Origin: Eggerthella timonensis
Lineage (GTDB): Bacteria > Actinomycetota > Coriobacteriia > Coriobacteriales > Eggerthellaceae
DNA length: 64,000 bases
Reading direction: 5' to 3'
Assembly (NCBI RefSeq): GCF_900184265.1
Contig: NZ_FXXA01000002.1
Coordinates: 1,970,539 to 2,034,538, forward strand
Part shown: positions 438 through 49,841 of the stretch, one piece after another
Layout: each line of letters starts with the position of its first letter
How positions within the stretch are numbered: position 1 is the stretch's first letter
Translations under genes and position numbers: made by a program
Notes under the pieces: model-generated
Seen by the model: only the letters and a program-made list of their open reading frames with translations
The model's database searches: none
What the model was told of the DNA's origin: nothing

Positions 438-1820
438 ATGATCGAACGCATCGACGAGACGAATCTTGGCGCTATCGTCAATCCGTCCTTTCGGGAGTAC
501 GCCGCCCGGTACGTGCGCATCGAGCGACGGTTTCGCGAAAGCGTCGCCGCGCTGGGGCTGCCGTTCGAGGATTCTGAGGATCGCGCCCCTCGCGAGGAGG
601 CGAGGAAATGCGGATGCGTGGGATGCCCTCGCGAAGCCGCGCCGGTGCTTCCCGAAGGCTTGGCCTCTTATAGAGGGCGAGGGCTGACCGTTGCGAACGA
701 TGGCAAGAGCCTTTTCGCTCGTTGGCGTTCCGATGCCTGCGCAAACTGCCGGCTCGGCGTTCATGCGAAGACGTTCCTCTTCTCAACGCAGTGCCCCCGT
801 CGGTGCTTCTTCTGCTTCAACCCGAACCAGGAGGGTCTCGAGGCGAACCTGCACGACGCGGTGCGCGAGCTTGAAGAGTGCGCCGAGCGCGGTGCGATCT
901 TCACGCACTTGGCTCTAACGGGCGGCGAGCCTCTGCTCCATGCAGAGGAGACCGTGCGCTTCTTCCGTCGAGCGCGCGAGCTGTACCCCGATGCCCATAC
1001 GCGCCTCTACACGAGCGGCCTGTTCCTCGATGAGCCGTTGATGGAGGCGTTGGGAGACGCGGGCCTGCGCGAGATCCGTTTCAGCGTCAAAACCGAGGAC
1101 GACTCCGCCGCCATCGAACGTGTTCTGGATACCATCGCCTGCTCGATGGCGTACCTGCCGGACGTGATGGTGGAAATGCCCGTAGTGCCGGGAGAGCTTG
1201 ATTTGATGAAACGGCTCTTAGTTCGACTCGACGGCATCGGGGCGAAAGGCATCAATTTGCTGGAATTGGGCTACCCTTTCGCGAATGCCGAAGCTTTTGC
1301 GCATCGAGGGCTCAAGATCAAAGCCGATCCGCTTCGGGTGTTGTACGACTATCAATACGCAGGCGGCTTGCCGGTGGCGGGCAGCGAAGAGGATTGCCTG
1401 CTCCTCCTGCGATTCGCGCTCGACGAGGGGCTGCGCATGGGCGTGCATTACTGCTCGATGGAGAACAAGTTCACCGGGCAGATTTATCAGCAAAACGCCC
1501 CGCATGACGCACGGTACCCATGGTGCGTCATGTCTCGGAAGGACCACTTTCTGAAAACAGCGCTGGTTTTCGGAGAAGATGCGTTTCGCGTACATGGGGT
1601 TTTCGCCGATCGCAAGGTCCCGAAGAAGCACTATCGCTACGAGAACGACCATCTTGAATTCGACCCTGAGCTCATCACGCTCCTGGCAGAAGCGCTCCCG
1701 CTCGTCGAGGTCGGCCTCGGCTATCGTGTGATAGAACGGCGCGAAGGCGAATGGGTGCAGCGGGAAGTGCGTCTCGATCACGTCGTTTTGGAGACGTTCG
1801 ACTTCGATAGCGATGTGTGA
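438..1820 (+). CDS. radical SAM protein
   Basis: A 460-residue protein with a CX3CX2C motif (C119, C123, C126 in CPRRCFFC) that binds the SAM-coordinating 4Fe-4S cluster, followed by the LTGGEP motif typical of radical SAM barrels. Extra cysteines lie upstream (KCGCVGC near residue 57 and CANC near 99) and could bind a further cluster or metal. The C-terminal third has no domain I recognise. The start is supported by a GGGGAGGG ribosome site just upstream. It follows a TorD-like gene by 36 bp, so it may serve a neighbouring molybdoenzyme system, but the substrate cannot be read from the sequence. The radical SAM assignment is firm; the function is unknown. Confidence 0.85.
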   Translation: MIERIDETNLGAIVNPSFREYAARYVRIERRFRESVAALGLPFEDSEDRAPREEARKCGCVGCPREAAPVLPEGLASYRGRGLTVANDGKSLFARWRSDACANCRLGVHAKTFLFSTQCPRRCFFCFNPNQEGLEANLHDAVRELEECAERGAIFTHLALTGGEPLLHAEETVRFFRRARELYPDAHTRLYTSGLFLDEPLMEALGDAGLREIRFSVKTEDDSAAIERVLDTIACSMAYLPDVMVEMPVVPGELDLMKRLLVRLDGIGAKGINLLELGYPFANAEAFAHRGLKIKADPLRVLYDYQYAGGLPVAGSEEDCLLLLRFALDEGLRMGVHYCSMENKFTGQIYQQNAPHDARYPWCVMSRKDHFLKTALVFGEDAFRVHGVFADRKVPKKHYRYENDHLEFDPELITLLAEALPLVEVGLGYRVIERREGEWVQREVRLDHVVLETFDFDSDV

Positions 1821-1843
1821 GGCGCCCTGGGCGCTCGACGCTC

Positions 1844-1857
1844 CCATGGTACCATGG
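1844..1857. promoter_or_regulatory. 14-bp perfect palindrome upstream of LysR gene
   Basis: CCATGGTACCATGG is its own reverse complement and sits in the short gap between the radical SAM stop and the LysR start. It could be an operator, but a chance NcoI-KpnI-NcoI-like palindrome is not excluded. Confidence 0.3.
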
Positions 1858-1894
1858 CGTCATCCTTCGTTCGGCTAGAGACGGGAGCATGCGC

Positions 1895-2785
1895 ATGGAG
1901 CTGCGAACCCTTCGGTATTTCTTGACCGTCGCTCGCGAGGGCAGCCTCACCCGGGCGGCGAACGTGCTGTACGTGACACAGCCTGCCCTTTCGCGTCAGC
2001 TCAAGTCGTTGGAGGAGGAGCTGGGGGCGAAACTGCTCGTGCGGGGAAGCCACAGCGTCACCCTCACCGAGCAGGGGAGCCTGCTCAAGCAGCGTTCCGA
2101 GGAGATAGTGCAGCTCGCCGACAAAACCGTTGCCGAGTTCGCCGCTCCCGCCGACGCGATAGCAGGCGACGTGCACATCGGGGTGGGCGAGTCCTACACG
2201 TCGCGGTTCCTCGCGCGCGTCGCTCGGGAGCTGCAGGATCGGCATCCCGGCATCCGCTATCGGCTCTACGACGGCAACGCGGACGATCTCGCGGATCGGC
2301 TCGACGGCGGGCTGCTCGACTTCTGCGTGCTCATCCAGCCCGCCGACCTCTCGAAGTACCACCACGTGCGCATCCCCGAGAAGGACTCGTGGGGCCTGCT
2401 GATGAGACGTGACAACCCTCTGGCGGAAAAGGCATCCGTCAGCCCCGGCGACCTCGCCCACGAGCCGCTCATCTGCTCCGACCAGACCATCGTGCGCACG
2501 CTGTCGCACAACACGTTCATCGATTGGTTCGGCGAGGGCTTCGAGAAGCTCAACATCGTGGCCACGTACAACCTCATCTTCAACGCCACCCTGTTCGCGG
2601 CCGAGGGGTTCGGGAGCGTTCTATCGCTTGAGAAGCAGGTGCGCGTCGACGAGGCCGGTGTGCTGTGCTTCCGCCCGTTGGAACCGAGGATGGAAGTTGA
2701 ATCGGACATCGTGTGGAAGAAGCACCGTATGTTCTCTCCGGCGGCGGAGGCCTTCCTGCACGCGCTCGACGACCATCTCGCGTAA
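1895..2785 (+). CDS. LysR-family transcriptional regulator
   Basis: A 296-residue protein starting MELRTLRYFLTVAREGS, the classic LysR winged helix-turn-helix opening, with the recognition segment around QPALSRQLKSLEEELGAKL. The remainder is a co-inducer-binding domain of normal length. I chose ATG 1895 because GGGAG at 1883-1887 is spaced 7 bases from it; ATG 1889 would be only 1 base away. The frame is open back to a GTG at 1817. It lies between the radical SAM gene and the DMSO-reductase-like operon on the same strand and is a plausible regulator of the latter. An AT-rich dyad (2854-2885) between them is a candidate target. The ligand is unknown. Confidence 0.9.
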   Translation: MELRTLRYFLTVAREGSLTRAANVLYVTQPALSRQLKSLEEELGAKLLVRGSHSVTLTEQGSLLKQRSEEIVQLADKTVAEFAAPADAIAGDVHIGVGESYTSRFLARVARELQDRHPGIRYRLYDGNADDLADRLDGGLLDFCVLIQPADLSKYHHVRIPEKDSWGLLMRRDNPLAEKASVSPGDLAHEPLICSDQTIVRTLSHNTFIDWFGEGFEKLNIVATYNLIFNATLFAAEGFGSVLSLEKQVRVDEAGVLCFRPLEPRMEVESDIVWKKHRMFSPAAEAFLHALDDHLA

Positions 2786-2853
2786 GGGCCTCTCGCCCGC
2801 CCGAAGTTTCTCGACGCGGGTTTCCGTCGGAGCCGGTCGATCACTTATGGATG

Positions 2854-33050: not shown

Positions 33051-33319
33051 TTCCGACCCAATTCATCATCTGATACACTAGCGATGCTTCTTTCGAGTCT
33101 GTAGTTGCGGGTTTTTCAACCTCAGTCCACGGCAGATGCGGTCGAAAGGACCCACGTAAGCCGCGCGGTTTCCGCGCGACGATCATGGCGTATCCTAGAG
33201 GTAAGCCGCACCGCCCGCGTATCGCGACATCCGGTCGCGACGGGCGAGAGGGCAAGGCGCAAGCTGAGCTCCAGTGCGCGAGTGTGGGGGCAAAGACTAG
33301 GTCAGTCGGAAGAGGCAGC
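33051..33319 (+). promoter_or_regulatory. promoter and structured leader of solute-binding lipoprotein gene
   Basis: A weak TTCCGA, 17 bp, TACACT (33074-33079), then about 235 nt of leader. Stems CGCGCGG-TTT-CCGCGCG (near 33160) and a two-part stem CGCCCG...TCGCGAC / GTCGCGA-CGGGCG (about 33212-33248) suggest a folded RNA. No known riboswitch class was recognised. Confidence 0.45.
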
Positions 33320-47846: not shown

Positions 47847-48099
47847 AGGTCGGTCTCCTTCCCTCGCACCCCGCCTTGTGCGGGGCCCTCCAGCGAGTCA
47901 TGCGACTTTGCTGACGCTTTTGCGCATCGTTGCGGTACTAAGCGTATCAGCATACTTTAGTGCAATAAAGCACGTCGTGACGAAAATTTAACATTCGAGC
48001 GTTGGTTTCCTTCCGCGAGCGCGCCCGAATGGCCCCTGAAAGGTAGGTTCCGCCGAGGGAGGCCCGGCCCTGCGCAGCCGTTTTCGCTGCGTCGACGGC

Positions 48100-48129
48100 C
48101 GTTTTCGCCGTGAAAGGACGGCGAAAACG
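48100..48129. repeat. compact palindrome upstream of the trp leader
   Basis: CGTTTTCGCCGT, loop GAAAGG, ACGGCGAAAACG: a perfect 12-bp stem just before the trpB2 promoter. Confidence 0.65.
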
Positions 48130-48143
48130 CCGAAAAAAGGGCT

Positions 48144-48172
48144 TTGCATCCGACGGAGGGAAGGGCTATACT
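48144..48172 (+). promoter_or_regulatory. promoter of the trp leader
   Basis: TTGCAT (48144-48149), 17 bp, TATACT (48167-48172), about 40 nt before the leader-peptide start. Confidence 0.65.
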
Positions 48173-48211
48173 GGCGGGCGTACCCGGAAACCCGAGCGTG
48201 AAAGGCTCCCT

Positions 48212-48298
48212 TTGCGAACTGCCGCCAACATCGTTCTCGTCGACAACGTCCTCGCGACGCCGTCCGTCGGCGCATGGTGGTGGAACAGAACGCATTAA
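48212..48298 (+). CDS. trpL: tryptophan leader peptide
   Basis: A 28-codon reading frame starting at TTG 48212 (AAAGG six bases upstream) and ending GAWWWNRTH then TAA at 48296-48298. Three consecutive Trp codons occupy 48275-48283. About 45 nt after the stop comes an intrinsic terminator (48342-48370) before trpB2. This is the classic layout of ribosome-mediated trp attenuation: with little charged Trp-tRNA the ribosome stalls on WWW and an antiterminator forms. The start codon is inferred; the Trp run and terminator are plain. Confidence 0.8.
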   Translation: MRTAANIVLVDNVLATPSVGAWWWNRTH

Positions 48299-48341
48299 TC
48301 CCGGGTCCCCTGGCTTCTGTCCACGCATACATACTTATCAG

Positions 48342-48370
48342 AAGAGCCCTCGGAGATCCGGGGGCTCTTT
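48342..48370 (+). terminator. trp attenuator terminator
   Basis: AAGAGCCC (48342-48349) pairs with GGGCTCTT (48362-48369), with an inner CGG-AGAT-CCG extension, then TTTTC. It is 86 bp before the trpB2 ATG. Confidence 0.85.
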
Positions 48371-48455
48371 TCGTGCGTGCCGTGCGTGCGCGAGGCCGAT
48401 CACGATGATCCGCGGCGGGAAGCCGCGGAACCGACTGCAAGGAAAGGAAACGACC

Positions 48456-49841
48456 ATGACCGAACAAGCACCGCATCGTCTGTACCTGCGCGAAGACCAG
48501 ATCCCGACGCAGTGGTACAACCTGCGGGCCGACATGCCGGAGAAGCCGGAGCCCATCCGGCTGCCGAACGGCCAGGTCGCGCGACCTGAGGATCTGGCAC
48601 CCGTGTTCTGCGACGAGCTCGTGCGCCAGGAGCTCGACGACGACACGGCCTACGTCGACATCCCCGAGCCCGTGCTGGAGATGTACCGCATCTACCGTCC
48701 GTCGCCCTTGTGCCGCGCGTACAACCTGGAGAAGGCCCTCGGCACGCCCGCGAAGATCTACTACAAGTTCGAGGGCAACAACACGTCCGGCTCGCACAAG
48801 CTGAACTCGGCCATCGCCCAGGCGTACTACGCGAAGGCCCAGGACTTGAGCGGCATCACCACCGAGACGGGCGCGGGCCAGTGGGGCACGGCGCTGGCCG
48901 AGGCGTCGGCGCACTTCGGGCTCAACCTCGACGTGTTCATGGTGAAGTGCTCCTACGAGCAGAAGCCGTTCCGCCGCAACATCATGGAGACGTTCGACGC
49001 GCACGTGACGCCCTCGCCGTCCGACACCACCGAGATCGGCCGCAAGATGCTCAGCCAGCACCCCGACTCCACGGGCTCGCTGGGCACGGCCATCTCCGAG
49101 GCGGTGGAGCGCGCGCTCAACATCCCCGGGAACAAGGGCCGCTACACGCTGGGCTCGGTGCTCAACCAGGTGGTGCTGCACCAGTCGGTCATCGGCATGG
49201 AGAGCTACGCCGCCTTCGAGGAGCTGGGGGAGTACCCCGACGTCGTCATCGGATGCGCGGGCGGCGGCTCGAACCTCGGCGGCCTCATCGCGCCGTTCAT
49301 GCGCGACAAGATCAAAGGCGACCGTCCCGACACGCGCTTCATCGCCGTCGAGCCGGCCAGCTGCCCCTCGCTCACGCGCGGGCGCTACGCCTACGACTTC
49401 GCCGATACGGGCCGCACCTGCCCGCTCGCGAAGATGTACACGCTGGGCAACGGCTTCCTTCCCAGCCCCGACCACGCCGGCGGCCTGCGCTACCACGGCA
49501 TGAGCCCCATCGTGTCGAAGCTCAAGCACGACGGCTACATGGACGCCGTGGCCGTGAAGCAGACGGACGTGTTCGCGGCGGCCGTGGAGTTCGCGCGCCT
49601 CGAGACCATCCTGCCGGCGCCCGAGAGCGCCCACGCCATCTTCCAGGCCATGGAGGAGGCCAAGCGCTGCGCCGAGACGGGAGAGGAGAAGACGATCCTG
49701 TTCGGCCTCACGGGCACGGGCTACTTCGACATGAAGGCCTACGACGCCTACAACCGCGGCGAGATGAGCGACCATATCCCCACCGACGAGGAGCTCGAGG
49801 CGGGCTTCGCCAGCATCCCGCACATCGAGGGCGTGCAGTAG
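48456..49841 (+). CDS. trpB: TrpB2-type tryptophan synthase beta chain
   Basis: A 461-residue PLP enzyme of the long TrpB2 class. The PLP lysine is in NNTSGSHKLNSAIAQAY, the phosphate-binding glycines in GCAGGGSNLGGL, and TETGAGQWGTAL and the late GLTGTGYFD are intact. It makes tryptophan from indole and serine. No trpA or other trp gene is nearby, as is common for TrpB2, which often works alone on free indole. The leader peptide with three Trp codons and an attenuator show that the cell treats it as a tryptophan-producing enzyme. Start ATG 48456 after GGAAAGG. Confidence 0.93.
   Translation: MTEQAPHRLYLREDQIPTQWYNLRADMPEKPEPIRLPNGQVARPEDLAPVFCDELVRQELDDDTAYVDIPEPVLEMYRIYRPSPLCRAYNLEKALGTPAKIYYKFEGNNTSGSHKLNSAIAQAYYAKAQDLSGITTETGAGQWGTALAEASAHFGLNLDVFMVKCSYEQKPFRRNIMETFDAHVTPSPSDTTEIGRKMLSQHPDSTGSLGTAISEAVERALNIPGNKGRYTLGSVLNQVVLHQSVIGMESYAAFEELGEYPDVVIGCAGGGSNLGGLIAPFMRDKIKGDRPDTRFIAVEPASCPSLTRGRYAYDFADTGRTCPLAKMYTLGNGFLPSPDHAGGLRYHGMSPIVSKLKHDGYMDAVAVKQTDVFAAAVEFARLETILPAPESAHAIFQAMEEAKRCAETGEEKTILFGLTGTGYFDMKAYDAYNRGEMSDHIPTDEELEAGFASIPHIEGVQ

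Follow-up and report, generated by a model that had tools for sequence, protein, structure and literature searches.

A ribosome-mediated transcription attenuator which senses charged tRNA-Trp very likely controls TrpB2, the only tryptophan synthase beta subunit visible in this genome. The reading is drawn from the sequence of one window (the whole analysed stretch of 64 kb) and from its comparison with related genomes. Beyond the window, leaders of the same type recur before trpB2 and before genes of tryptophan uptake, and T-boxes occupy the same place in relatives.

Leader peptide and alternative RNA structures

The region upstream of trpB2 contains a presumed leader peptide, a terminator and the strands of two competing structures. 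The features are listed by position in the window.

48143-48172 (+): sigma-70-like promoter, TTTGCA at 48143-48148 and TATACT at 48167-48172 (one found, shuffled mean 0.0)
48144-48149 (+): alternative box on the -35 side, TTGCAT, with a 17-nt spacer
48200-48205 (+): GAAAGG, Shine-Dalgarno-like, of the leader; kept in 4/4 genus members
48212-48298 (+): leader peptide ORF of 28 aa from a presumed TTG start to a TAA stop; frame kept in 4/4 genus members
48275-48283 (+): three consecutive Trp codons; unchanged in 4/4 genus members
48280-48290 (+): segment 1 of the 1:2 hairpin, GUGGAACAGAA; from the fold of 48270-48374
48300-48307 (+): 5' strand of the outer antiterminator helix, CCCGGGUC; separated from the stop codon by one nucleotide
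48312-48319 (+): 5' strand of the inner antiterminator helix, GGCUUCUG; from fold and covariation
48315-48324 (+): segment 2 of the 1:2 hairpin, UUCUGUCCAC; from the fold, with 5/10 pairs changed on both sides
48339-48348 (+): 3' strand of the inner antiterminator helix, CAGAAGAGCC (CAGAAG..CC); terminator 5' arm
48342-48371 (+): terminator hairpin (48342-48369) with a short U tract (48368-48371); from fold and covariation
48355-48362 (+): 3' strand of the outer antiterminator helix, GAUCCGGG; terminator loop and start of the 3' arm
48441-48447 (+): GGAAAGG, Shine-Dalgarno-like, of trpB2; from the sequence
48456-49841 (+): trpB2, TrpB-like PLP enzyme of 461 aa, starting with ATG at 48456

The leader ORF, presumably a short translated leader with tandem Trp codons, runs from TTG at 48212 to TAA at 48296-48298 and reads MRTAANIVLVDNVLATPSVGAWWWNRTH (28 aa), the TTG being our guess for the start codon. 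UGG-UGG-UGG at 48275-48283 lies in its frame, which survives a 3-nt indel among the four genus members. It is the single WWW-bearing ORF of 8-60 aa on both strands of the window. The Trp-codon run by itself is unremarkable since TGGTGGTGG occurs at 191 sites in the genome. An earlier note on this DNA had described a peptide of 28 codons, three Trp codons, a stop and a hairpin 5' of trpB2; all are confirmed, the hairpin spanning 48342-48369. The promoter sits at the start of the range which that note covered, and GCTATACT within it is unchanged in 4/4 genus members.

The terminator, AAGAGCCCUCGG-AGAU-CCGGGGGCUCUU, has 5 of its 12 pairs changed on both sides among 12 aligned leaders, and the stretch 48342-48374 folds at -22.3 kcal/mol. 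Its U tract consists of only four U in a row, two of them inside the stem, and a strict terminator scan requiring 5 T in 8 lists none in 48000-48500. T runs are longer in some relatives (L008, L012 and L013), and not in others of the genus.

The antiterminator and the terminator are mutually exclusive, the former using the latter's 5' arm and loop together with part of its 3' arm. Folding of 48284-48360, the stretch which would be accessible if a ribosome were stalled on WWW and the polymerase had only just cleared the terminator loop, gives one nested antiterminator hairpin at -18.0 kcal/mol, the last two pairs of the outer helix lying outside the folded stretch. The antiterminator is still favoured in 48299-48365 (-26.1), and two bases further on, in 48299-48367, the terminator is favoured (-28.2). 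The 1:2 hairpin is present in the fold of 48270-48374 and covaries, with several mismatches in L009, L010 and L049. It is absent from the minimum free energy structure of the full leader (48198-48374), in which the Trp-codon stretch pairs with upstream sequence and not with segment 2; the hairpin therefore rests on the shorter fold and on covariation.

These elements suggest the following course of events. With plentiful Trp-tRNA, the ribosome would read WWW and reach UAA. Since the second base past the stop already belongs to the antiterminator, a ribosome resting at the stop would cover the first antiterminator strand, CCCGGGUC, and the terminator would form before trpB2. With scarce Trp-tRNA, the ribosome would stall on WWW and mask segment 1, leaving the region behind the stop free. 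The nested antiterminator (CCCGGGUC/GAUCCGGG outer, GGCUUCUG/CAGAAG..CC inner) would then form first, drawing in the terminator's 5' arm and loop as well as some of its 3' arm, and transcription would continue into trpB2. If segment 1 is uncovered, the 1:2 hairpin (GUGGAACAGAA/UUCUGUCCAC) could take the inner strand, which would favour termination. The resulting TrpB2 could turn indole taken from neighbours into tryptophan.

Distribution, covariation and probable exchange with T-boxes

A first search found trpB2 above the TIGR01415 cut-off in 14 of 41 genomes. Nine of these 14 loci, counting that of the window, have an AWWW leader, four a T-box (70.6 to 94.6 bits, one above the gathering score of 93) and one neither. 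A covariance model, R1, was built from 12 leaders and run with strict filters on 395 genomes of the order. At E <= 0.01 it yielded 141 matches in 127 genomes. This genome contributes one match and holds no second copy detectable by R1 at E <= 0.1. Among 198 genomes sampled from the phylum, at least 14 of which belong to the order, no match was obtained outside the order at E <= 0.01 and one at 0.048.

One match (G033) is the L014 leader, seen as AWWW before trpB2; the other 140 were classified. Although R1 carries no information on the downstream gene, 137 of them precede tryptophan-acquisition genes: trpB2 in 69 cases, a TrpP-like ECF transporter S component in 62 and a symporter of the sodium:neurotransmitter family in 6, with 3 others. 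These labels were assigned by tblastn at 1e-4 with one query each. The Pfam model of TrpP, PF17099, scores above its cut-off for L154, finds nothing in L155 and gives 19.2 versus a cut-off of 27.2 for the G036 copy; most TrpP labels are based on an identity to L154 of about 30-40%, and on an ABC ATPase which adjoins the gene in L154 and L155. The protein called 'TrpP' in the accessible text of PMC11995493 is a different one, of the SdpI family. All six symporter genes with a WWW attenuator (L213, L226, L236, L241, L255 and L264) belong to genus g60; the SNF model PF00209 is confirmed for L213 and L255, and this symporter is likely a tryptophan importer.

Some attenuators remain before a trpB2 which is deleted, lost or partial. 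The 69 cases include partial, probably decayed copies in L169 and L200, and in L131 a transposase-like ORF (1657-2844, minus strand) lies between leader and trpB2. Of the three other matches, L248 stands before a trpB2 which has lost a large internal part, L252 lies at a locus lacking trpB2 and L257 at the end of a contig.

At least two in-frame UGG codons and a stop occur within 138 of the 140 matches (three UGG in 132, two in 6), a feature partly built in as R1 was trained on leaders with UGG runs. The leader which the earlier note proposed is recovered in relatives. That note had also named the loss of the Trp run from a persisting terminator as a sign against attenuation; the tandem run is missing from two of the 140 matches (L189 and L222, genus g94, both before trpB2), too few to refute it. 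Many trpP leaders are possibly as short as 14 codons, e.g. MNWWWRNFSSLGRW.

The antiterminator, 1:2 and terminator helices covary. For the outer antiterminator helix, 90.7% of cells in the 12 leaders are paired and 8 are double-changed, a count reached by 0/500 shuffles. The 1:2 helix and terminator together have 10 pairs and 21 cells double-changed, and 0/500 shuffles are as high; both cell counts also exceed those of all slid versions. Other statistics discriminate to different degrees: the number of pairs changed on both sides in the outer helix is matched by 7/500 shuffles and that of further pair types by 361/500, while further pair types in the 1:2 helix and terminator are matched by 8/500. 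Two of the 12 rows, L053 and L057, are apparently one column out of register and were kept. Conservation of the inner antiterminator helix is poor in some leaders (77% of cells). On 63 model-aligned matches the antiterminator shows 147 double-changed cells versus a shuffled mean of 46, in an alignment which was fitted to the same structure; the 62 loci behind this count were selected largely for their trpB2, and one of the matches is weak (19.5 bits) and antisense.

An energy test, in which the segment upstream of the terminator alone was shuffled, covered 137 of the 140 matches; the three dropped are trpB2 cases, two without a leader and one without a usable hairpin. Real leaders form about 16-18 pairs into the terminator versus about 6-7 in shuffled ones. 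The median z was -1.7 for 66 trpB2 leaders (71% below -1) and -1.6 for 6 symporter leaders. The effect is weak for 62 trpP leaders, with a median z of -0.9 and 45% below -1.

T-boxes precede trpB2 at many loci where R1 gives no match. From at least 80 such loci in the order, 58 upstream stretches were sampled: 40 hold a T-box, 4 a WW leader below the R1 cut-off and 14 neither. The 40 T-boxes, at 44 to 92 bits, all lie below the gathering score of 93, with a worst E-value of 5.7e-7. For one of the 14 'neither' loci just 168 nt were available, and a WW ORF in L320 and L329 was left uncounted. Loci where neither attenuator nor T-box was found upstream of trpB2 include L051 (Slackia sp. ZJ119), L313 and L314. 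An alignment of five T-boxes, one upstream of this genome's trpP and the other four upstream of trpB2, shows UGG at the specifier place in all of them, as judged by eye. Eight more distant loci were picked by hand, and a T-box scores above the gathering score in six, all from Bacillota.

When 34 TrpB2 proteins are placed on a tree, the attenuator label has to change 4 times, at least two of these changes being forced by well-supported branches; the T-box labels of L052, L054, L059 and L061 rest on the motif, none there reaching the gathering score. With at least two changes forced, more than one replacement between attenuators and T-boxes before trpB2 is probable.

Tryptophan supply and rival explanations

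TrpB2 scores above the cut-offs of NF009057 (E 1.6e-199) and TIGR01415 (E 3.8e-169). Its best relative among the 80 named loci listed, where very near records may be missing, is that of Paraeggerthella hongkongensis with 88% identity. The genome, that of a member of the Coriobacteriia and with an estimated completeness of 99.99%, gave no TrpA, IGPS, TrpE or second, canonical TrpB in searches; its other TIGR01415 match reaches only 21.9 bits. The method used for the second TrpB detects canonical TrpB in relatives and gave a signal in all 14 control genomes. The lone chorismate-binding enzyme scores above the isochorismate synthase cut-off and below those of TrpE. The outcome of these searches for TrpA, IGPS, TrpE and TrpB speaks against a trp pathway hidden elsewhere in the genome, and the lack of a match to the tryptophanase model TIGR02617 speaks against an own indole source. 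The genome thus seems unable to make tryptophan from scratch, and TrpB2 is its sole visible route from indole to tryptophan, a conversion which the enzyme can presumably carry out. TrpB2 is described as indole-scavenging in the accessible text of PMC2700814. Anatomy and comparison support what the earlier note had claimed, namely tryptophan-controlled attenuation of a lone trpB2.

Uptake appears alongside salvage. A TrpP S component above the Pfam cut-off lies on contig C2 of the source genome (3584663-3585169, minus strand, locus L301), followed by two ABC-ATPase-like ORFs. It is 63% identical to the TrpP behind a WWW attenuator in genome G019. Upstream of it, a T-box (RF00230) covers model positions 1 to 219 at 68.2 bits and E 4e-13, below the gathering score of 93; the alignment shows a UGG specifier, placed by eye, and the GGUGGCACCGC motif. 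Salvage through trpB2 would thus be under an attenuator and uptake through trpP under a T-box, both being expected to read Trp-tRNA charging. As far as the accessible text of PMC10234575 goes, E. lenta DSM 2243 did not grow at all once tryptophan was left out of the defined medium, and tryptophan auxotrophy is predicted to be conserved across the modelled E. lenta strains. This need fits a bacterium obliged to import tryptophan or to capture indole. The earlier note had suggested that TrpB2 is the main route to tryptophan from indole. It is the sole visible route from indole; to take it for the main source of tryptophan would overreach, given the TrpP importer with its UGG T-box and the failure of E. 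lenta to grow without tryptophan.

Three other explanations deserve consideration. We give next to no credence to a plain terminator between transcription units which happens to follow a chance ORF and regulates nothing. The 191 genomic occurrences of TGGTGGTGG and the empty strict terminator scan would suit such an arrangement. However, the leader and its gene context are conserved across the order, the helices covary and the window holds one such ORF; conservation, covariation and gene context rule out that the leader ORF arose by chance. It is also very improbable that the leader is translated and the stalling answers another signal, such as free tryptophan or indole in the exit tunnel, in the manner of TnaC, or ribosome-targeting drugs. 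Indole sensing could profit an indole enzyme, but the peptides vary widely outside AWWW, as judged by eye, and trpP leaders possibly shrink to 14 codons. Furthermore, the same genes stand elsewhere behind T-boxes, which sense tRNA-Trp charging and carry UGG specifiers in the five aligned, and the 1:2, antiterminator and terminator helices are all present.

The third explanation leaves the regulation as described and assigns to TrpB2 another beta-replacement reaction as its main role instead of tryptophan formation from indole. We regard it as unlikely, though it deserves some weight: the enzyme is not a TrpB1 (133.5 bits with TIGR00263, under the cut-off of 392), E. lenta is called a tryptophan auxotroph in the accessible text of PMC10234575, and an own indole-making gene was not found in the genome by the tryptophanase model. 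Against it, two kinds of tryptophan sensor before trpB2 and tryptophan importers fit best with tryptophan supply, and the closest solved relatives carry the names tryptophan synthase beta chain 1 or 2.

A probable tryptophan-acquisition regulon compared with known systems

Tryptophan-auxotrophic Coriobacteriia probably run a hitherto undescribed tryptophan-acquisition regulon, in which attenuators on trpB2, on the trpP ECF importer and on a sodium symporter have repeatedly been exchanged with UGG T-boxes and both sensor types occur in one genome. In the literature searched, including the accessible text of PMC9413887 and PMC8632094, neither a trp attenuator of Coriobacteriia nor any control of their trpB2 or trpP is described, which is weak evidence of absence as subscription journals were mostly outside the search. 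Discussions of ribosome-mediated attenuation usually concern biosynthesis, whereas in these gut bacteria, which seem to lack the pathway, it would control scavenging. The prediction is that under tryptophan shortage these commensals would switch on the capture of indole made by their neighbours. This would tie indole, a well-known signal molecule of the gut, to the nutrition of Eggerthella-like species. In addition, orthologous genes at which attenuators alternate with T-boxes would provide natural cases in which to follow the replacement of one RNA sensor by another.

The trp attenuator of E. coli combines a leader peptide with tandem UGG codons, alternative antiterminator and terminator structures and a downstream tryptophan gene. 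The accessible text of PMC1262725, whose named genomes include no Coriobacteriia, predicts trp attenuators in Corynebacterium and Streptomyces, which likewise have two or three tandem UGG, the same alternatives and a tryptophan gene downstream. The earlier note had stated that such attenuation is normally known from complete trp operons; this is too narrow, since the attenuators in that text include those of S. avermitilis trpS2 and of a C. diphtheriae operon named trpB2A. The C. diphtheriae operon resembles our case in that an attenuator precedes a gene called trpB2; unlike here, the gene adjoins trpA, and that bacterium has a second operon, trpB1EDGC (PMC1262725, accessible text). In contrast to the attenuators of Corynebacterium, Streptomyces and E. 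coli, the targets here are a lone trpB2 or importers, and this genome has no visible trp operon. The architecture differs as well from that of the textbook attenuator: a single nucleotide lies between the stop codon and the antiterminator, which takes up not only the terminator's 5' arm but also its loop and some of its 3' arm.

The amino-acid operon leaders of Rfam, i.e. Leu_leader (RF00512) and Trp_leader, would share the function of the window's leader, which matches none of their sequence models. A T-box (RF00230) or any other Rfam family over this leader is ruled out, as nothing was found there at E <= 1. Elsewhere in the window, a raiA RNA (RF03072) lies at 33088-33314 on the plus strand with 144.8 bits, and in a relative Leu_leader weakly matches the WWW leader of L009 (2905-3032, minus strand), at 27.9 bits versus a gathering score of 50 and with an E-value of 0.11. 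T-box leaders resemble the attenuator in that they are expected to sense Trp-tRNA charging and stand before the same genes in relatives, and before trpP in this genome; unlike the attenuator, they bind the tRNA directly and need no leader peptide. The mechanism proposed for trpB2 is thus a known one, whereas its target, its lineage and its exchange with T-boxes appear to be new.
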